A stretch of 37,039 bases of DNA from a virus. Every line of letters begins with the position of its first letter. Position 1 is the first letter of the stretch. Under the pieces are notes generated by a model that was not told where the DNA came from, did no database searches, and was given only the letters and a program-made list of their open reading frames with translations. Shown here piece by piece: positions 18,962 to 29,817 of this stretch. The DNA lies in IMG/VR virus record IMGVR_UViG_3300003886_000021, positions 1 through 37,039 of that record; one strand, written 5' to 3'. The position numbers and the translations under genes are program-made.

Positions 18962-19423
18962 ATGGACCCACTACTTCCTAAGCATCTAATGTCTTCACTG
19001 GCCGTTTATTTTGAGCCCATCGCCGCTGCACAGGGTATATCCTACTTTGTTGAGGGGGTGAATGAAGACAGTACAGATGTGTTCCAAACGGATTCCGCCC
19101 TGCTGAGAATGAACGGCCCTATCCTGTTTGAAGGGACCTCTACCGAAGAGTGGTATGGAATAGAGATACAAATTCTACTTACCGATATTATGCAGTCTAA
19201 CGAGCCTGCTTACAATATCTACGAGTGGTCTGGAGCGTTCCAGCAGGCGTTGCAGAATGTCATTCAAATATTCGACTTCGACCCTCCTGAGGAACTAATA
19301 GGGTGCTTACAACCTGATCGAAGTGTACGAAACAACATAAGAGTTGTCAACTATAACATAGTTGATAGAGATGTCCGCGTTCGGCAGATGAGTGTGAACG
19401 CACGATACATCCTCCATAACTAA
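18962..19423 (+). CDS. Tail terminator candidate
   Basis: A 153-residue alpha/beta protein located immediately before the major tail genes, the canonical place for the tail terminator (lambda gpU-like). The N-terminal helix (LPKHLMSSLAVYFEPIAA) and a C-terminal strand (VRVRQMSVNARYILHN) fit the general fold of this family. The sequence has no unique motif, so the call is by position and size. Confidence 0.5.
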   Translation: MDPLLPKHLMSSLAVYFEPIAAAQGISYFVEGVNEDSTDVFQTDSALLRMNGPILFEGTSTEEWYGIEIQILLTDIMQSNEPAYNIYEWSGAFQQALQNVIQIFDFDPPEELIGCLQPDRSVRNNIRVVNYNIVDRDVRVRQMSVNARYILHN

Positions 19424-19448: not shown

Positions 19449-20576
19449 ATGGCAAGACTCCAATTACGAGATACTAACATCTTTCTTCAAGATGGGCTAT
19501 CGGGGTCGGCTCAGGTCGACGAGGGTAACTCGTCTCTGGCACAGGTCCCGGTGGTGACTACCACGCAAGGGGCGATGGCCACAGACGAAGTGCAGACGGT
19601 TGTCCAGTATGGGAGAGCACCTACTGGCGGTACCTACACCTTATGGATTAGCGATGGTACTACGTCCTTTACTACTGCGGACATTGCATTCAACGCTGCT
19701 GCTGCGGTGATTGAGACCGCAATCGACGTAGCCGCTACTGCTGCAACATACCCGGCGTTTACCAATGGTGACATTACTGTCGCGGAAGTGGGCGGCGTAG
19801 CGGGTGTATCCGACGGCGGCGGAGTCACATTGACTTACGACGGGGCCTCAGTCACGAATACAAATTTCGAGACTACCATTATTAACGGTGCGTCCCTTAC
19901 TGGGACTACGATTACCGGGGGCTCCACACTGGGCCTGCAAATGTTAGTCCTGAACTCCGATGTAACGAACCGAGTTCCAGTTGGGGGGAGATTCACAATC
20001 GCCACTGAAACCGGGACACCGATTCATACCATTACGTCCCGATATCAGAACCCCATGGACGGCACTCTGACGATTGCATTTACCCCTGCCATCGCTTCCA
20101 CGGTGGCCGAGAGCGATGCAGTTGTGTTCATGCCACAGCGTCTCTCAATTCGAATTGGTGACGGAGATGTCACTTGGACTGAGAGCCGGGAAATGATCTA
20201 TGACCTCGACCGGGACCTGCTTGACAGTGTCCGAGAGGGGCAAGAGCAGCCTGTAGAAATCGAACTTAACTTCGTATTCGAAGAGGTTACCGCTACAAGC
20301 GGACAACCTGTTTCTCCAGTAGACGCTTTGAAGAGAATTGGAGAGGCCACAGAGTGGGTTTCCTCTTCGGCAGATTTGTGTCAACCTTATGCCGTTGACC
20401 TGTTCGTCATTCACTGTGTGCCCTGCGGCACAGACCAGGATCAAGACTTCTTGTTCCAAGATTTCCGTTGGGAGAGTTTAGATTACTCCATTCAAGACGC
20501 TGCTATTGCCGTGTCGGGACGTTGCAATGTTGCTAACATCACAACGACACGAGGCAACTTTAACGAATGTAGTTAA
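19449..20576 (+). CDS. Major tail (tube) protein, long paralogue with inserted domain
   Basis: A 375-residue protein with GGAG six bases before the ATG. Residues 1-20 and about 160-375 match the protein encoded at 20666; the last about 148 residues differ at only eight positions. The extra section (about residues 30-155) is beta-rich, with TYTLWISDGTTSFTTADIAF and GVTLTYDGASV, as in Ig-like or decoration domains added to tail tubes. It probably builds a decorated tube or caps it. Nucleotide third positions differ widely from the copy, so this is an old duplication under protein-level constraint. Confidence 0.72.
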   Translation: MARLQLRDTNIFLQDGLSGSAQVDEGNSSLAQVPVVTTTQGAMATDEVQTVVQYGRAPTGGTYTLWISDGTTSFTTADIAFNAAAAVIETAIDVAATAATYPAFTNGDITVAEVGGVAGVSDGGGVTLTYDGASVTNTNFETTIINGASLTGTTITGGSTLGLQMLVLNSDVTNRVPVGGRFTIATETGTPIHTITSRYQNPMDGTLTIAFTPAIASTVAESDAVVFMPQRLSIRIGDGDVTWTESREMIYDLDRDLLDSVREGQEQPVEIELNFVFEEVTATSGQPVSPVDALKRIGEATEWVSSSADLCQPYAVDLFVIHCVPCGTDQDQDFLFQDFRWESLDYSIQDAAIAVSGRCNVANITTTRGNFNECS

Positions 20577-20665
20577 TTATAGCCACGTCGGCGGCTCATT
20601 AGGTTGGCACGAACCCGAGAAAGCCAAGACGGTTTATTTACTTTTTACACTAGCTGGAGAATGAA

Positions 20666-21412
20666 ATGGCTCGAATCCAATTGCGAGACACAAACATCTT
20701 TCTTCAAGATGGCCTATCTGGTGCCGCCCTGATCAATCAGGTCACGGCAGGCGGGGAAACCACCTTGACGATCGACGCTGTTGTCTTGAATTCGGATGTG
20801 ATCGACCGCGTACCAGTTGGGGCGAGGTTTACTATCTCTACTGAGACAGGAACCCCTATCCATACGGTAACGGCTCGCACTCCGATGAGTGGCAATCCGA
20901 CCACGGACATTACGTTCACTCCTGCTTTAGGTGCTGGTACTACTGACAACGACGCTATCGTATTCTTGCCGCAACGGCTTGCAATTCGTATTGGCGACGG
21001 TGACGTAACCTGGACCGAAAGTCGTGAGATGATCTATGATCTTGATCGTGATTTGCTGGATAGTGTACGAGAAGGTCAAGAACAGCCTGTCGAAGTCGAA
21101 CTCAACTTTGTGTTCGAGGAGGTTACCGCTTCAAGTGGGCAACCCGTTTCGCCAGTAGACGCACTAAAAAGAATTGGTGAAGCTACAGAGTGGGTTTCGT
21201 CTTCTTCGGATTTGTGCCAGCCTTATGCTGTTGACTTGTTCGTGATTCATTGTGTTCCTTGCGGTACAGACCAGGATCAAGATTTCTTGTTCCAGGACTT
21301 CCGTTGGGAAAGTTTAGATTACTCAATCCAGGACGCAGCCATTGCTGTTTCTGGTCGATGTAATGTAGCTAATATCCCCACAAGTCGTGGTGATTTCAAT
21401 GAGTGCAGTTAA
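20666..21412 (+). CDS. Major tail (tube) protein, short paralogue
   Basis: A 248-residue protein, the core version without the inserted domain of the gene at 19449. It shares RIGDGDVTWTESREMIYDLD and the ending NECS. Codons favour CGT, GAT and GGT, like the coat gene, suggesting stronger expression and making it the likely main tube subunit. The 89-base gap before it contains two short GC pairings (AGCC/GGCT near 20581 and TTGGC/GCCAA near 20604) and a T-rich stretch. Followed by a strong terminator. Confidence 0.75.
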   Translation: MARIQLRDTNIFLQDGLSGAALINQVTAGGETTLTIDAVVLNSDVIDRVPVGARFTISTETGTPIHTVTARTPMSGNPTTDITFTPALGAGTTDNDAIVFLPQRLAIRIGDGDVTWTESREMIYDLDRDLLDSVREGQEQPVEVELNFVFEEVTASSGQPVSPVDALKRIGEATEWVSSSSDLCQPYAVDLFVIHCVPCGTDQDQDFLFQDFRWESLDYSIQDAAIAVSGRCNVANIPTSRGDFNECS

Positions 21413-21421
21413 TTTGAATCG

Positions 21422-21452
21422 GGTGGGCGGGTAAATCCGCCCACCTTTTCTT
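21422..21452 (+). terminator. Strong rho-independent terminator after the tube genes
   Basis: A perfect 9-bp stem, GGTGGGCGG (21422-21430) with CCGCCCACC (21437-21445), a GTAAAT loop and then TTTTCTT. It ends the tube transcript and would keep expression of the tail chaperone and tape measure lower than that of the tube, as expected from their stoichiometry. Confidence 0.9.
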
Positions 21453-21472: not shown

Positions 21473-22003
21473 ATGAAAATCGGTGGACTAGAAGTTAGCG
21501 GACCGGCAGAGGAAGTTTTGGTGCTGCCACGTCTGGATAATGACATTATTATTCGGACCGAAGCCGTCCTGGATATGTCCCCTTTTGAGGCTCTTTGTCC
21601 GGTGCCTAGTGCCCCGACAAAGCTAAAGCCGGGGGGTTTTACAAAGGACATAGAGAACACGGGATACATCGAGCAGACAAAGAGGCATGGAGATTTGCGG
21701 TTCGCATTTATCTGTGTCACGTCTCTGGTGCCCAGCGAGATCGAGTGGGAAGATGTTGACCTAGGTGTGCCAGATACTTGGCTCAAATGGGACCAAGAAC
21801 TCACAAAAGCGGGGTTTAGTTCTGTGGAGTTGAACCGGGTGGTCATGTGTATCATGCAGGCTAACTCGCTAGACGAGAATAAACTCAAAGAGGCCCGTGA
21901 GCTTTTTCTACATGGTCAGGTGGAGGGGGCCCCAAAATCCTCTGGCCCAAGTACCGAACCGGGGAATACTCAGTCTGGCGAGCCTGTGAACGCTTCGGCG
22001 TAA
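21473..22003 (+). CDS. Tail assembly chaperone, unshifted product (lambda gpG-like)
   Basis: A 176-residue protein starting at the ATG at 21473; a TTG six bases upstream is not favoured. The position between tube and tape measure and the mixed helical sequence (KWDQELTKAGFSSVELNRVV, then NKLKEARELFL) fit tail assembly chaperones that coat the tape measure during tail building. After residue 155 the zero frame continues only with a low-complexity Pro/Ser/Gly tail (SGPSTEPGNTQSGEP), which is what such genes show beyond a frameshift site. The stop overlaps the next ATG in TAATG. Confidence 0.8.
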   Translation: MKIGGLEVSGPAEEVLVLPRLDNDIIIRTEAVLDMSPFEALCPVPSAPTKLKPGGFTKDIENTGYIEQTKRHGDLRFAFICVTSLVPSEIEWEDVDLGVPDTWLKWDQELTKAGFSSVELNRVVMCIMQANSLDENKLKEARELFLHGQVEGAPKSSGPSTEPGNTQSGEPVNASA

Positions 22004-22676: not shown

Positions 22677-25600
22677 ATGGAGATAACCCAACGCTTAGGC
22701 TTTGAAGCCACACAGGCAATAGCAACTCTTAACTCTTTAAGAACTGCTATCAGTGGCGTCAATCGTACATTGCTTACGTTTAATAACCGAGCCAATGCCG
22801 CTGGGGTAAGTGCTGCTGCACAGAGTTTCGGACAACTTTCTTCCGCGGCACAAAGAGCAGATGGTTCTTTGCGAACGAATGCCAATAGCTTCCGACAAGC
22901 GGGCGTAGCGGGTTCGACCGCAGGACGCCAGATAACGGCTTCGTGGGAAACTATGCTTCGGGTCGTTCAAACCCAAGTTCTGGTCCGTGCTCTTTCTACT
23001 GTTGTGCAACTGTTCGGAGAGAGTGCGACCGCCGCTGGTGAGTTTGAAATAGCGGTGGCCCGGATTGCCAATATTACCGACGGTCCTGGAGGAAGTATAG
23101 ATGAACTCACTACATCCTTACGTGAATTGGCTGTAGAGCTTGGGCGGCCAATCGACGAAGTCACCACGGCTGCCTTTGAGGCATTCCAGAACGATATAGG
23201 CGATGTCACCCAGACCATGAACATTCTGAGGACCTCAGCCAATGACTTGGCTTTGGTCACCGGGGGTGAGCTAGTCGACTCAGTTAATACCATTAGTTCC
23301 GTGCTCCGTATTTTCAATATGGACATCAGCCAAGCAGACCGCGTGGCCGACATCTTGTTCGGTACGGTGGATGCAGGGCGTGTAACACTCGATGACCTTG
23401 CAAGCAGCCTGGGTAGTGTGGCCCCACTTGCTAGAGACTTGGGAATTAGCTTCATCGATATGTCTGCTGCAATTGCGGCCATCACGCTCCAGGGTGTTGA
23501 CTCCTCTCGTGCTCTGACACAACTGCGTGGAGTAACTAACTCTCTCTTGCGTCCCACAACCGCGTTGCAGGAAGCGTTCACCACTTTAGGTGTGTCCTCG
23601 GGCCCACAATTGATTGAGCAGTTCGGAGGCATCGTCGGAGCCCTGCAAGCCCTTGAAGGGGCGGCCATGGGTAACGAGGAAGTGTTCGCTTCGTTCTTCG
23701 GACGAATCCGGGCCTTAACGGGTGCCACGAATATTCTCAATAACGAAGCATCTGATACCACCAGAATCGCCGCCGAATTAGCCACCAACTTAGGCCGAGT
23801 TAGCCAAGCGGCGGACAACGTAGATGCCACACAAGCACGGCAGTTGCGGATTGAAATAGCCGCTCTTAATGATGTTCTCCTGGGGGCCGGTGGCGGCATC
23901 GTCCAATTCCAGACAGACTTAGCTCGTGGATTCAACCGGGTGGTTCTCCTGGCAAGGGTACTAGCGGGCGACATTGATCTTTCAGAAGTGGCCTTAATGG
24001 GGGTCCGTAATGAATTCAATCGGACCGAGCAAGAAGCCCGACGCTTATACCAAACGGTAGCTAATGGAAATCAGGCTCTAGCCCGTTCGGGGGTATCTGA
24101 ACAGACAGCCGAAATACGCAGATTCGCCGGAGAGGTTTCGGAGGTCTATCGACGGTTGGCCATGGAAACCGGGCAGATACAATTAGAGATTCAACGAGGT
24201 CTCATATTAGCTTCCTCAAACTTCTCCACAGAGATCACGAATATTGTTGACGAAGTGGCACGAAGAATCGGCGGACTTCAGAGTACCATAGACTCCCTAA
24301 CGGACAGAGCGAGCCAAGCCTTAGAGCAACAGGGAGACGCTTCGTTTGAGAATCAATTAAACAGCCTTAATGCACAAGAGCGTGTCCAGGCTAGAATCAA
24401 TCGCTTGGTGCAGGCCGAGTTTCAGCTACGGGATCAGGCTTCTGAGGTCACAGGCGACCCCGCTTCCGTTGAACGTCTGGTAGAGCAAGAACGTCGAGTT
24501 CGTGACAGAGCGAATGAGCTTTTGAATGAAGCCAACCGGCGGCGAAGGGACGACACCACACGGCAGGTTACCGCCGCAGAGAGGGCACAACAAGAGGCAA
24601 CAATCAGGCAAGCAGAGAGACTGAGGATTGATTCCTTAGGCACAATCGTACAGGCCAACGAAGCCGCCGCTCGACAGATTGCTGCCCTGCAAGATGGGAT
24701 AGACACACGCCGCCAAGCAGGTTTGGTTGCTGACCTTAATGAACTTAACAGGTTGCAACAGCAACTCGCGGAAGCCGAACCCGCCAGCCCAGAGGCACAG
24801 TCTCTTCGGGATCAGATAAATGAATTAAACCGGGGCGTTGACACCGAACTCCTGGACTCTTTGGGATTAGAAGATGCCTTCTTGAATTCCTTGGAGACAT
24901 TCCGCACTGCTTTGAACTCCGCCACCTTTGAGTGGTCTGGGGCCGTGGCTTCATTGCAAAGAGCTATTAGTGATGAGATTTTCACAGTGGCCGCCGAATT
25001 TGATCTCCCCCAGGGGGCAATTGACGCTGCACAAAATGCTACCGGTGATCCGGGAGTGGCTATTGAGAATACCATCAACGCAGGTACAGCAGCTTTGGAG
25101 AGGCAGGCTCTCGCACAAGCTGGTGTGGCCGAGCAGACATTCCTGTCCCAAAACGCATACGAACAAGCAGGGATACAAATTGAGACTTTACGCGAGCAGG
25201 CGAGATCGTCGATTAGCACTCTCGCTGCCCTGACCGCAGCAGCCACGGGGTCGGAAATCGACACTTCGGCGGCGGACGGCTTAGCGGCTAGTGCTACGAA
25301 CCTGGAGAACATAAGGTCCGAAATTCTTCGAGGTGACGCGGCTCAACAGGGAGCAATTACAGAACGCCTAGCTAGCATTGAAGCAACAACCGGCACATTA
25401 AGAGAAACCGGCGAGCTTTCCAGTGAACAGGCGACTTCTGTTCTTACTGCTGTAGAATCTCTTCGTCGATTGCAAACCTCTTTGTCTGAGAGAAACGCAC
25501 AAGAAGGACTAATCAATGACGAACAAACTATGCAGGACATTCAGAACTTAGAAGATATCACCCAGGCGGGTGGAGAAACTCAAACTTCCGTGGACGCCAT

Positions 25601-26120
25601 TCGCACTAGTGCTAACGGGGTATTGGCCCCTTTGATTCTAGTGCCAGGAGTATTAGAAGAAGGCAGCGTGGCGGCACAGGGCATTAACGATCAAGTGGGT
25701 GGCATTCCAGCCCGCGTGGCACCGGCGATTCAGGCCGCTAATCGATTAGCTGAGGCTTTTCTTAGGGCGGCCCGAGCAGCGGCGAGTATTCCATCCGGCG
25801 GTGCAGCGAACGCTTTCTTCGGAGGTGGTATTCAGTTCCGTCAAGATGGGGGAAGAATCGGCAGAGGTCAGGACACAATACCAGCAGTCCTTTCTCCCGG
25901 AGAGTTCGTTGTAAATTCCCGTGCGGCACGGAACTTCTCTGGTGAACTACAAGCAATTAACGCGGGTCAAAGCCCGCAATTCAGGCAAGAGGGTGGCTCA
26001 GTAACAAACATCGGGGACATAAATGTCTCCGTCCAAACCGACTCAACCCGAGGTGTATCGGGAGGAGACATTGCAAGTGCATTGCGTCGAGAGCTCCGAC
26101 GCGGAACATCAACCCTATAG
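22677..26120 (+). CDS. Tape measure protein
   Basis: A 1147-residue protein directly after the chaperone genes. The region at about residues 120-370 (AAGEFEIAVARIANI, VDAGRVTLDDLASSLG, then ALTQLRGVTNSLLRP) matches the PhageMin_Tail-type tape measure domain. A long Gln/Glu/Arg-rich coiled coil follows (about residues 480-720). The C-terminal IPAVLSPGEFVVNSRAARNF (about residues 1060-1085) is a common tape measure ending. By the known rule of about 0.15 nm per residue, the tail would be near 170 nm. Start ATG has AAGGA nine bases upstream. Confidence 0.92.
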   Translation: MEITQRLGFEATQAIATLNSLRTAISGVNRTLLTFNNRANAAGVSAAAQSFGQLSSAAQRADGSLRTNANSFRQAGVAGSTAGRQITASWETMLRVVQTQVLVRALSTVVQLFGESATAAGEFEIAVARIANITDGPGGSIDELTTSLRELAVELGRPIDEVTTAAFEAFQNDIGDVTQTMNILRTSANDLALVTGGELVDSVNTISSVLRIFNMDISQADRVADILFGTVDAGRVTLDDLASSLGSVAPLARDLGISFIDMSAAIAAITLQGVDSSRALTQLRGVTNSLLRPTTALQEAFTTLGVSSGPQLIEQFGGIVGALQALEGAAMGNEEVFASFFGRIRALTGATNILNNEASDTTRIAAELATNLGRVSQAADNVDATQARQLRIEIAALNDVLLGAGGGIVQFQTDLARGFNRVVLLARVLAGDIDLSEVALMGVRNEFNRTEQEARRLYQTVANGNQALARSGVSEQTAEIRRFAGEVSEVYRRLAMETGQIQLEIQRGLILASSNFSTEITNIVDEVARRIGGLQSTIDSLTDRASQALEQQGDASFENQLNSLNAQERVQARINRLVQAEFQLRDQASEVTGDPASVERLVEQERRVRDRANELLNEANRRRRDDTTRQVTAAERAQQEATIRQAERLRIDSLGTIVQANEAAARQIAALQDGIDTRRQAGLVADLNELNRLQQQLAEAEPASPEAQSLRDQINELNRGVDTELLDSLGLEDAFLNSLETFRTALNSATFEWSGAVASLQRAISDEIFTVAAEFDLPQGAIDAAQNATGDPGVAIENTINAGTAALERQALAQAGVAEQTFLSQNAYEQAGIQIETLREQARSSISTLAALTAAATGSEIDTSAADGLAASATNLENIRSEILRGDAAQQGAITERLASIEATTGTLRETGELSSEQATSVLTAVESLRRLQTSLSERNAQEGLINDEQTMQDIQNLEDITQAGGETQTSVDAIRTSANGVLAPLILVPGVLEEGSVAAQGINDQVGGIPARVAPAIQAANRLAEAFLRAARAAASIPSGGAANAFFGGGIQFRQDGGRIGRGQDTIPAVLSPGEFVVNSRAARNFSGELQAINAGQSPQFRQEGGSVTNIGDINVSVQTDSTRGVSGGDIASALRRELRRGTSTL

Positions 26121-26641: not shown

Positions 26642-26692
26642 TCCACCCTCTCGGCGGGGGAGATGGCATCAAACCCGCTCTTTGGAATAACT

Positions 26693-28249
26693 ATGGCTAT
26701 TATCTTCTTTGAAGGTTTTGAAACACTGGGCCCGGACGTGGGTATAGCTAACAATACGGCTATGCGTTTAAGGCTACAGAAACGTATGGGTGTGTTTAAT
26801 AACCTGGGGGATATGCAGACCAGCAACCAATTCTTAGCAATCGGGGACGAGGGTGTAGGGTTCGCTTGGCACATGGGCACGGAACCACAGTCATTTGCGA
26901 ACACCATTTCATTCTTACTACCGACACAACTTGCCGTTGAAACTAACACGGCCACGCCACTAATAACTATGGGGTGCTTGGTCCACATACCTAGTAGCCC
27001 TAGAACATTCCCTCTATTCACTATGACGCACACCGGGGCCAATGAGCCCAATCTGTTAGTGGATAACTCCACCGACTTGATTTTCAGAGTGGGGACTACA
27101 GTAGTCGCCACTGCTCTAGGAGTCTTGGATGCAGGGGAGTACAACTATGTTGAGTTCCAAATTGTGGTGGATGGCACTGAGGGACAAATCGGAACCTCTA
27201 CAATAAATGAGGATATCACGGACACATTCATCATCGATCCCGGAGCCGCGGACATAGTGGACATCGACATATCCGCCCCGGCTTTCTATGAGCCCCTGTG
27301 GGATAGCACGGTCACCTACACTATCACTAATACAGTAAGGTGGCAGGGTTCCGAATATGAAGCCTTGAACCCTGGAGGGGCCAATTTGGGGCAAGAGCCC
27401 GGAGTTGAAATGGGTGGGTTCTGGAACTTAGTAGGAGTGGAACAAAATAACACCATTACCTCTGTGCCCAATGGGTCTACGTTTCACTTCTTGAATGACC
27501 CCAACCGAACAATTTATACAGTAACGAGCACAGACACGACCACGAACATTGTGTTCACTCCTGGACTCACTGCGGCAAGTTACCTTCCTGCTAACACCGA
27601 ACAGGTAGTGTTTGGCACGCGTGCTCAATTCGAGGCTAGAGTAGCGAGTCAGAGAGTGATGGGCGAACTGGGTTTACTCACAATGGACGCCGGGGTTCGT
27701 GAAACCCTCCAGGAAATAGAGTATGGTGCAACCTCCTCTGACACCGGAACCAACTTTGTGGCTTACGATGATCTTTATGTCACCACCCCGGATGGAACCG
27801 GTAATGACGGGTTTTTGAATGCCGTGAGGGTGATCAACCTGCCACCTACCACGGCCACCCAGGAACAATGGGAACAAAGTGAGGTAGCTGCCAACAATGC
27901 CGATCTGGTAAGAGAGCATGGGGTGAACGAAACTACATTCCTTAGATCGAATGATAACACCTATGTGGACATCATGGAACATGGGCAGGTAATCTCCGAG
28001 GGGTCGGCACTCGCAGTAAAGATAGAAACAGAAGTGGAGAATCTAACCGCAGGGAATCCTCAGGTTCGAGCAAGGTTACACTTAGGTGGAAGCAATGTGG
28101 AAACCAATTCTCCCGTGATCGTGTCCGGGGATACCATCGTCACCCAGGCATTCATCCCCCAGCAACCGGGTGGTGGGGATTGGGACGTAGCTTCATTAAA
28201 CGCCTCACTTATACAAATTCAAATGTTCTCTGGGTTCGGGGTATTATAA
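26693..28249 (+). CDS. Minor tail protein with CBM5/12-like module, paralogue A
   Basis: A 518-residue protein. I start at MAIIFFEGFET because the next gene begins with the almost identical MAIFWFEGFET; an ATG 30 bases upstream (26663) has a ribosome site only two bases away. Residues about 196-250 (EPLWDSTVTYTITNTVRWQG, then EYEAL and FWNLVG) follow the W-x-Y-x-V-x-G-x-Y-x-A pattern of CBM5/12 carbohydrate-binding modules. The rest is beta-rich, with FVAYDDLYVTTPDGTG before a fibronectin-like end. Probably a tail-tip or side-fibre component that binds surface sugars. Its stop overlaps the next start. Confidence 0.65.
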   Translation: MAIIFFEGFETLGPDVGIANNTAMRLRLQKRMGVFNNLGDMQTSNQFLAIGDEGVGFAWHMGTEPQSFANTISFLLPTQLAVETNTATPLITMGCLVHIPSSPRTFPLFTMTHTGANEPNLLVDNSTDLIFRVGTTVVATALGVLDAGEYNYVEFQIVVDGTEGQIGTSTINEDITDTFIIDPGAADIVDIDISAPAFYEPLWDSTVTYTITNTVRWQGSEYEALNPGGANLGQEPGVEMGGFWNLVGVEQNNTITSVPNGSTFHFLNDPNRTIYTVTSTDTTTNIVFTPGLTAASYLPANTEQVVFGTRAQFEARVASQRVMGELGLLTMDAGVRETLQEIEYGATSSDTGTNFVAYDDLYVTTPDGTGNDGFLNAVRVINLPPTTATQEQWEQSEVAANNADLVREHGVNETTFLRSNDNTYVDIMEHGQVISEGSALAVKIETEVENLTAGNPQVRARLHLGGSNVETNSPVIVSGDTIVTQAFIPQQPGGGDWDVASLNASLIQIQMFSGFGVL

Positions 28250-29817
28250 TGGCCATATTTTGGTTTGAAGGTTTTGAAACTTGTGGCACCCTGGTAGGTG
28301 CTGCCAATGCTACTGCCACCAGAGCAGAAATTGCGAAGAGAGTGACCACCATGTTTAGTGGGGGACCTTTTTTGATCGACGATCCCGATATAGACGGGTT
28401 CGCTGTAAATTTCGGGGGCAACTTTCAATCTGCATTTGACCTAACTTTCGACGGCTCAACATTGGGAAATGAACGATTGGGTCACGACGGGTCCATCATC
28501 ACAGTGGGTGCAAATATACATTTTCCAAGCCCGGCCCGGAATTTTTCCCTTATCCGTATGTATAGCCAGTCCAATGCTGGTAATGACAATTTTTTAGACT
28601 TGGGAATGAGGGCAGACGGGGGGCTTGCTATTGCAAGAGGTGCATCCGTTCGTATGGAAACAGGTCCTTTAACCCCTTCGATTACAGGCGAGTGGGCCTA
28701 TGTAGAGTTCTCTTATCGAAACTCCGGCATGGCCGGTACTTATGCCACCGCTAAAGTGGCTGCTATTCCCGCAGACGGGGCTACCATTTTAGAAATCGAC
28801 ACTCTCGAAGAACGAAGGCCCTTTTGGAGGGCAGGTACTAGCTATTCGACAGGCACGGAACGTTCTTGGATGGGTAGAGTCTATGAGATGGTGGCGGGTC
28901 CGAATAGTACAGGCGATATCCCAGATGAAAACCCCCTCATTTGGGAAGATGTAGGATCGATGAATGACCCGTCGTTCTTAGAAGTATTCGATTCTTCATT
29001 TCAGCCGCATTTCCATATTTTACAGGACCCGGAACGTAGAATGAGGAATACCCTAGGGATTGATAACAACCCTGCCGATCAAATTCGCCTTAGCGGCAAC
29101 AGTTATGATATTGTTGGAGGGGACTACCAGCCCGCTATAGGCGATGATATTGTGGTGGGGGATTCTAGCTTTGTTGAAGTTAGACTCAACGGAGTTCGAA
29201 TAATGGTTGCCCACCTACGGCCCAATGGGTCTAGATTCAACGACTTGGGCAGTGCCTCCGGCGATGTAACAGGGCACACATTAGATCGGACTACATTCAT
29301 TCAGACTTTTGGCATTACAGGAACCGGAGAGAATTTTGTGGGGTTCGATGATGTCTATATTAGTTCTTCGAGTCAAATGTGGAACCCCGACACCCGAGGG
29401 GTTTCTTTAATAAGAAGTTTGCCCCCTACCTCCGACATTGTATCCGACTGGACTGCTGTGCCCGGTCCCGATAACTTTTCTGGGGTGGATGAAAACGGAA
29501 ATGACGCAGCCGACTATGTAGACGCCGCCAGCAACACTCTAGTTGACAGATACGGTTGCACAGATTTCACAGAATTTAGTGACGGACAAATCCATGCTGT
29601 TCGAGTAGAGGCAGAAGTGATCAATACCACAATGGGTTCTCCCGTAATTGAAGTCAGTGTCGGACCCTCTGGGGAAATCTCCGAAACATTCATAGTGGAT
29701 AACATAGTAGCCAGCGAAGTAGTACAAGTTGACACAGAAATAAAACCCGGTGGAGGCTTTTGGGGCTTCCCCGACATAGATGATCTACAAGTAGGCATCG
29801 AATCCTCTGGCCTTTAA
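28249..29817 (+). CDS. Minor tail protein with CBM5/12-like module, paralogue B
   Basis: A 522-residue protein with the same architecture as its upstream neighbour: the FEGFET start, a CBM5/12-like segment at about residues 189-237 (RRPFWRAGTSYSTGTERSW, then GRVYEMVAG and IWEDVG), FVGFDDVYISSSS and a Gly-rich end. Apart from these motifs the two proteins have diverged strongly. The start ATG overlaps the previous stop as TAATG; the long upstream extension in this frame is not needed. The pair probably arose by tandem duplication followed by diversification of binding. Confidence 0.65.
   Translation: MAIFWFEGFETCGTLVGAANATATRAEIAKRVTTMFSGGPFLIDDPDIDGFAVNFGGNFQSAFDLTFDGSTLGNERLGHDGSIITVGANIHFPSPARNFSLIRMYSQSNAGNDNFLDLGMRADGGLAIARGASVRMETGPLTPSITGEWAYVEFSYRNSGMAGTYATAKVAAIPADGATILEIDTLEERRPFWRAGTSYSTGTERSWMGRVYEMVAGPNSTGDIPDENPLIWEDVGSMNDPSFLEVFDSSFQPHFHILQDPERRMRNTLGIDNNPADQIRLSGNSYDIVGGDYQPAIGDDIVVGDSSFVEVRLNGVRIMVAHLRPNGSRFNDLGSASGDVTGHTLDRTTFIQTFGITGTGENFVGFDDVYISSSSQMWNPDTRGVSLIRSLPPTSDIVSDWTAVPGPDNFSGVDENGNDAADYVDAASNTLVDRYGCTDFTEFSDGQIHAVRVEAEVINTTMGSPVIEVSVGPSGEISETFIVDNIVASEVVQVDTEIKPGGGFWGFPDIDDLQVGIESSGL

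Follow-up and report, generated by a model that had tools for sequence, protein, structure and literature searches.

Two putative tail-tube genes with matched wall-forming parts, one bearing an inserted surface domain, in an uncultured phage family

Why would a phage maintain two neighboring genes for what appears to be the same tail-tube subunit, with an additional domain in only one of them? The question is raised by a virus record of 37,039 bases (IMG/VR record IMGVR_UViG_3300003886_000021), here called the window and analyzed over its whole length, in which such a pair, belonging to an uncultured family of bacterial viruses, stands within a tail module (Table 1).

Table 1. Features of the gene pair and its surroundings in the window
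Feature	Position	Strand	Basis or remark
153-aa gene in the tail-terminator place	18962..19423	+	position only; no family match
Long (decorated) putative tail-tube gene	19449..20576	+	375 aa; ORF and BLASTP to the short copy, 5' of tail chaperone and tape measure genes
N-terminal arm, long copy, residues 1-19	19449..19505	+	common to the short copy
Decoration domain, long copy, about residues 20-156/158	19506..19922	+	no counterpart in the short copy; matches Bxb1 surface domain
Outer barrel, long copy	19923..20135	+	diverged from the short copy
C-terminal tube domain, long copy, residues 230-375	20136..20573	+	139 of 146 residues agree with the short copy
Covarying three-helix RNA element in the spacer, right after the long gene's stop	20579..20632	+	covariation and covariance model
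Short (plain) putative tail-tube gene	20666..21412	+	248 aa; ORF and BLASTP to the long copy
Outer barrel, short copy	20723..20971	+	modeled structure similar to a domain in a phage tail tube (9n71) and to one in T5 pb9
C-terminal tube domain, short copy	20972..21409	+	aligned with the long copy
Intrinsic-terminator-like hairpin, 3' of the short gene and 5' of the chaperone gene	21421..21446	+	consensus match only
Tail assembly chaperone, gpG-like frame	21473..22003	+	between tube and tape measure genes
Slippery heptamer C_CCA_AAA	21931..21937	+	-1 frame open to 22176 (gpGT-like extension)
Tape measure protein	22677..26120	+	matches PF10145 (E 1.4e-22) and several tape-measure families in PHROG

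Both genes are complete, each with its own start codon and GGAG-type ribosome site, an arrangement distinct from a single gene expressed through a +1 frameshift. Their products share 186 of 234 aligned residues (BLASTP, E 4e-140). The first-pass annotation of this DNA had counted about eight differences in the C-terminal 148 or so residues against a background of many synonymous changes, and both points were confirmed: exactly eight of the last 148 positions differ, and within the part that runs from the QRL motif on, where seven of the differences leave 139 of 146 residues identical, synonymous sites are saturated (pS 0.83; pN 0.022). The arm (the first 19 residues) contains one difference, and the barrel-like outer barrel is 58% identical. 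We take residues 1-19 and the C-terminal 146 to be the tube part and the middle to be an outward domain. Codon choice, from which the short copy had been read as the more abundant, shows no significant bias across the 76 silently different codons: judged by the preference of the major capsid gene, the commoner codon lies in the short copy 38 times and in the long copy 30 times (P=0.13), and the background genes give 40 versus 36 (P=0.33).

The proposal that the two are major tail (tube) protein genes is supported by position. In siphophages, the major tail protein gene sits 5' of the chaperone and tape measure genes, and the pair lies between the head-tail joining genes and this chaperone/tape measure block. 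Downstream of it follow a chaperone gene with a canonical -1 heptamer, a 166-aa ORF and the tape measure gene; the slippery heptamer and the open -1 frame, situated between tube and tape measure, are those of a gpG/gpGT chaperone. Across the family, the pair is followed by an ORF of 151-200 aa, an ORF of 161-178 aa and a large ORF (558 aa or more) in 21/21 loci listed, an extra 180-aa ORF preceding the large one in L093 and a second large ORF following it in L010, and the large ORF was identified as PF10145 in 7/7 loci tested. Structural evidence is limited by the AlphaFold models of the two copies, which are poor (mean pLDDT 38 and 48, tube domain under pLDDT 50) because they were built from alignments of 9 and 11 sequences that predate the 70-sequence alignment; with these models as queries, Foldseek matched tail tubes only at E 0.01-0.06, with no value below 0.001. 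In the short model, the confidently predicted stretch (residues 17-105) has its best match in a domain of the Acinetobacter phage Mystique tail tube (9n71; Z 11.0, rmsd 3.2, 90 aligned), followed by T5 pb9 and others. Sequence searches with the short form returned no relative in the PDB or Pfam, and its only PHROG match was a distal tail protein (1.8e-5), spanning the arm and the outer barrel.

Several other features of the module are worth recording. The hairpin behind the short gene could reduce expression of the tail genes downstream. Two genes located 3' of the tape measure gene (26663-28249 and 28180-29817) are paralogous tail genes (28% identity, E 1e-32), and the former also contains a further copy of the outer barrel seen in the tube proteins (iE 3.8e-6). 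In addition, a GpA-type terminase (PF05876, 5566-7233) and a P22-type coat protein (PF11651, 10949-12370) are encoded alongside this siphophage-type tail module.

The extra part of the long copy had been described as a beta domain of about 125 residues. A domain of this size is present near residues 20-156, the long copy being 127 residues longer, but it is predicted, from the poor model, to be alpha/beta with one helix (residues 85-98 of the long copy) and not purely beta. A profile built from nine inserts matched the tail tip cage gp23 of Bxb1 (E 1e-7), the C-terminus of its capsid protein (0.009) and its tail tube gp19 (0.04), and a type-2 insert, one of those found at other sites in the family, matched the Bxb1 tail tip, capsid and tail tube at 2.8e-11, 2.3e-5 and 1.2e-4. 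The type-2 profile also recovers the type-1 inserts, with a best value of 3e-9 and 0.004 for the insert of the window. In structural comparison, the insert as modeled in the long copy has Bxb1 or Patience virion proteins in all of its top five rows, at Z values that are modest alone (4.6-6.1), and seven of the nine members of the major tail protein family phrog_10909 match the insert in their C-terminal part (best 1e-4). By similarity in both sequence and structure, the insert is therefore a domain of the Bxb1 surface type, and the initial reading of a duplication with one decorated copy is supported. In the excerpts of PMC13033339 drawn on here, Ig-like domains on the capsid and tube of mycobacteriophage Douge bind mycobacterial glycans; these domains may share the fold of the insert. 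Given the matches to Bxb1 virion proteins and this glycan binding, the most likely role of the insert is that of a surface adhesin, one that would probably bind glycans on the host surface. The same domain also occurs in tandem elsewhere, with three matches in a 367-aa ORF (L121:3195-4295) and five matches at iE under 0.01 in 1070-aa ORFs (L130:1827-5036; also L132 and L133).

Scans of IMG/VR and of GTDB genomes yielded 106 loci including the window, of which 78 remained after removal of shared DNA; three loci cut from the window itself were omitted. The family counts draw on three scans, the largest contributing its best 80 of 211 relatives; the metagenomic contigs are fragments, and several loci are near-duplicates. 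On this basis, 26 of the 78 loci carry two copies: 19 a decorated and a plain one, five two plain ones, one (L085) a first copy extended C-terminally without an insert, and one (L025) a pair that is cut. Among the matches listed, the remaining 52 loci are single-copy, and the 33 clear ones, in which the gene is complete and flanked by at least 1.3 kb on each side, are all plain (242-263 aa); the other 19 have short flanks or cut genes. Searches of the whole records of 20 contigs detected no second copy outside the pair. Since five of the 26 two-copy loci are plain plus plain, decoration is not the sole use of a second copy. Type-2 long copies (L061, L064, L082, L084, L090, L099, L102 and L105) carry the domain after the HTVTAR strand, except in L084, where it occupies the last loop of the barrel, so that among the loci listed the same domain is inserted at three different sites. 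The decorated state requires at least five changes on the tube tree, which together with the three sites shows that decoration was gained more than once: it has been added repeatedly to one of two copies and never to a sole copy in the sample. Apparent coding sequence separates the tube genes in L085 (3386-3916, about 531 nt) and L026 (3115-3412, 298 nt). Three family members had no tblastn match in 50,697 phage records. The only match among GTDB genome contigs was a single-copy relative (L108, DYKV01000002.1) on the contig of an Anaerolinea (Chloroflexota) MAG, a hint as to the hosts of the wider family.

Within the 26 pairs, identity is 80-100% in the tube part, 67-100% in the arm where measurable, and 38-82% in the outer barrel. 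With copy 1 of each pair as the reference, and leaving aside copies from other genomes that reach 97% or more, the nearest tube part is the pair's own partner in 22 cases; the two ties (L025/L026) and two losses (L102/L105, 0.850 vs 0.871) are each a pair of near-identical contigs. Trees of nine type-1 pairs (omitting L002, L003 and L025 as near-copies or cut) conflict between the two regions. Eight of the nine long copies form one clade in the outer-barrel tree (95/93), whereas in the tube-part tree all nine pair with their own short copy, and forcing one long clade on the latter is rejected (delta lnL 395). This conflict indicates that the duplication is old in the type-1 clade and that the tube parts were matched later. 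Type-1 tube parts are thus homogenized within each genome, and the outer parts keep the old long/short split. The earlier suggestion of an old duplication under strong constraint is therefore incomplete. Lineage-specific recent duplication is ruled out for the type-1 pairs by the same conflict, and it may apply to some plain-plain pairs, such as those of L050/L051 (pS 0.18-0.19). Exact recent duplicates in relatives, a finding that would have told against the first-pass annotation, were not encountered, as the tube parts of the 26 two-copy loci have synonymous-site differences of 0.18-0.83.

Gene conversion is evident in part of the family. Identical codons are clustered in L002, L003, L004, L007, L008, L009 and L061 (P of the longest run 0.0084 or lower in each), with runs of 39 codons in L061, 31 in L009, 26 in L004, 25 in L007 and 21 in L008 (P<0.01 each). 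Clustering is weak in L048 and L025/L026, and by this measure the window pair contains no conversion tract (P=0.73). Six residues separate the genomes L004 and L005 in both copies, four of which lie in or beside conversion tracts, one in L004 covering roughly tube codons 0-59 and a short one in L005 around 60-74. At the remaining two, tube codons 90 (V/V vs A/A) and 118 (I/I vs V/V), the residue goes by genome and the third bases and flanks by gene type; these two are parallel substitutions. Purely parallel substitution was nevertheless rejected as the cause of the identity, given the tracts in the codons of L004/L005 and the restriction of parallel change to codons 90 and 118. The pairs of L005, L006, L068 and the window retain residue identities of 0.947-0.993 at 4-fold differences of 0.57-0.72, and three single-copy ortholog pairs have already fallen to 0.83-0.86 at 0.33-0.42. 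Below a 4-fold difference of 0.4, paralogs (seven pairs, 0.914-1.000) do not significantly exceed between-genome pairs (six, 0.828-0.953) in identity, with P values of 0.14 and 0.11 in two bins; nine near-duplicate genomes were omitted from this comparison. The matching is accordingly attributed to conversion together with selection, the selection part being moderately supported.

The spacer between the two genes harbors a further element of about 55 nt and three helices, carried by the window and seven type-1 loci (L001-L005, L008 and L044). Over six sequences, eight of its 14 pairs have changed on both sides and 91.6% of cells are paired; its covariation (0.581) exceeds that of shuffles (0.275), none of 500 being as high. 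The covariance model finds one match in the window with filters off (next match E 0.92) and one in each of 7 of the 77 other loci, always between the long and short genes; a match in L030 at E 0.61 is at chance level. Rfam yielded nothing at gathering score in eight sources and nothing plausible in the spacer at lax thresholds. None of the type-2 loci, nor L006 or L007, has the element, so that it is not generally required; where present, it probably adjusts the relative amounts of the two products. Stop-codon readthrough at the element was considered and rejected, since, with spacers of 89, 94, 98 and 99 nt, the two genes do not share a reading frame in every locus.

Collectively, the pair is probably best understood as encoding the plain and decorated subunits of one mixed tail tube from two sequence-locked genes, with co-assembly proposed from sequence comparison; a mixed tube was also among the uses suggested by the first-pass annotation. 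The near-identity of the wall-forming parts suggests that both proteins are built into one tail: sharing the same tube-forming part (arm and C-terminal domain), both subunits could occupy equivalent places in the rings, and the long one would bear a Bxb1-type surface domain on its outward side. The density of decoration would then be set by the relative expression of the two genes, with the intergenic RNA element perhaps fixing the ratio of plain to decorated subunits, and the tail would acquire a sparse coat of adhesive domains. Under this model, gene conversion and selection for matching changes would keep the two tube parts of each phage alike, because both kinds of subunit must fit the same lattice, and the outer parts would be left to diverge. 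That decoration never occurs in a clear single-copy genome of the sample suggests that, for this family, decorating every subunit of the tube is either disadvantageous or impossible. A stronger version, in which the decorated subunit works only with the plain one, selection acts beyond conversion, the RNA tunes the ratio and decoration had several origins through insertion of the same adhesive domain at different outer loops, is somewhat less likely than not.

The two proteins might instead occupy separate zones of the tail, the long one forming the first or last rings at the neck or tip and the short one making up the remainder. Other phages are known to have tube-fold paralogs at the ends of the tube, and the tube paralogs of actinophages Damascus and Chikenjars, considered below, are 41-51% alike, as separate roles predict. 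However, the tube parts here reach 80-100% identity within a genome and change in step, which leaves no basis for sorting the two proteins by tube contacts, and the gene order varies, the short gene coming first in eight loci (L007, L061, L082, L084, L090, L099, L102 and L105); we regard this arrangement as unlikely. Slightly less likely still is neutral conversion alone, acting between tandem repeats and stopped by the divergence of the outer domains, with the long copy as a spare or alternative that takes no part in joint assembly. The identical-codon tracts of L004, L061, L009, L007 and L008 are what such a process would leave, but the window pair is 95% identical despite lacking a tract and having saturated silent sites, and the arm is matched as well, although diverged sequence splits it from the tube domain. 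The two parallel point changes in L004/L005 and the strict tie, in this sample, between decoration and the presence of two copies also argue against it.

Two further possibilities carry little weight. That the pair encodes some other tube-like component, such as the distal tail protein, is improbable: a weak PHROG match to that protein in 29 of 70 family members and the resemblance of the outer barrel to T5 pb9 are outweighed by the constant downstream order of chaperone-like gene and large ORF, by the tail tube as the outer barrel's best structural match, and by the similarity of the insert to a major tail protein family. The first-pass annotation had also raised selection against recombination as a source of the silent divergence. 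The saturated silent sites of the window pair would agree with this, yet its identical codons number 59 against 51 +/- 5 by permutation and are thus not fewer than chance; seven other pairs likewise share at least the chance number, and conversion does occur between copies in relatives, so that such selection can be given hardly any credence.

In the openly licensed literature, so far as the excerpts retrieved from it extend, searches for two-gene tail tubes and for conversion between phage tail genes brought up only the systems named here; matches to "two tail tube proteins" or "two major tail" in PMC10504331 and PMC9394477 proved irrelevant in the portions returned. The insert resembles a surface domain found on the Bxb1 capsid, tail tube and tip, but to our knowledge Bxb1, like Douge, has only one tube protein, which is always decorated, whereas the window has two genes. 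Closer in gene content are Damascus and Chikenjars, described in the excerpts of PMC11080557 and PMC10652937 as having two or three major tail protein genes. As in the window, several tail-tube genes lie close by and one has a long extension (609 aa); by contrast, the genes are not all adjacent, the extension is C-terminal, and the paralogs are 41-51% alike against 58% for orthologs (gp25/gp17), with no homogenization. No relation of the window family to these actinophage tail proteins was detectable (hhalign probability 0.1), nor is the pair by sequence a member of phrog_2645, which comprises the multi-gene major tail proteins of actinophages.

Mixed tubes themselves have precedents. In lactococcal 936 phage PhiC0139, according to the excerpts of PMC4759559, MTP and MTP-TpeX form a mixture whose extended subunits spiral on the tail. 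Plain and extended subunits are mixed there, as is proposed for the window; in PhiC0139, the extended form arises by a +1 frameshift and bears a C-terminal extension with a carbohydrate-binding domain. SPP1, in the parts of PMC6316719, PMC8718954 and PMC7666168 consulted, builds a mixed tube of gp17.1 and gp17.1* by a +1 frameshift at a ratio of 3:1, and the decoration is dispensable. What the window shares with SPP1, at the level of genes, is a subunit that comes in plain and decorated forms over a common tube part. SPP1 achieves this with one gene, a frameshift and a C-terminal FN3 domain, whereas the window has two genes, an insert near the N-terminus and tube parts that evolution has kept alike; with its two full genes, the pair is not of the SPP1 kind in mechanism. 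If the mixed-tube model is correct, one evolutionary route has recurred within a single uncultured phage family, namely to duplicate the gene, insert an adhesin into one copy and keep the lattice identical, and the pairs offer a natural test of how strictly the subunits of a helical polymer must match. In the frameshift tubes of the cited papers, one tube sequence is fixed by construction; here two genes would have to stay matched, and natural variation would therefore mark the residues of the lattice apart from those that are free to change.
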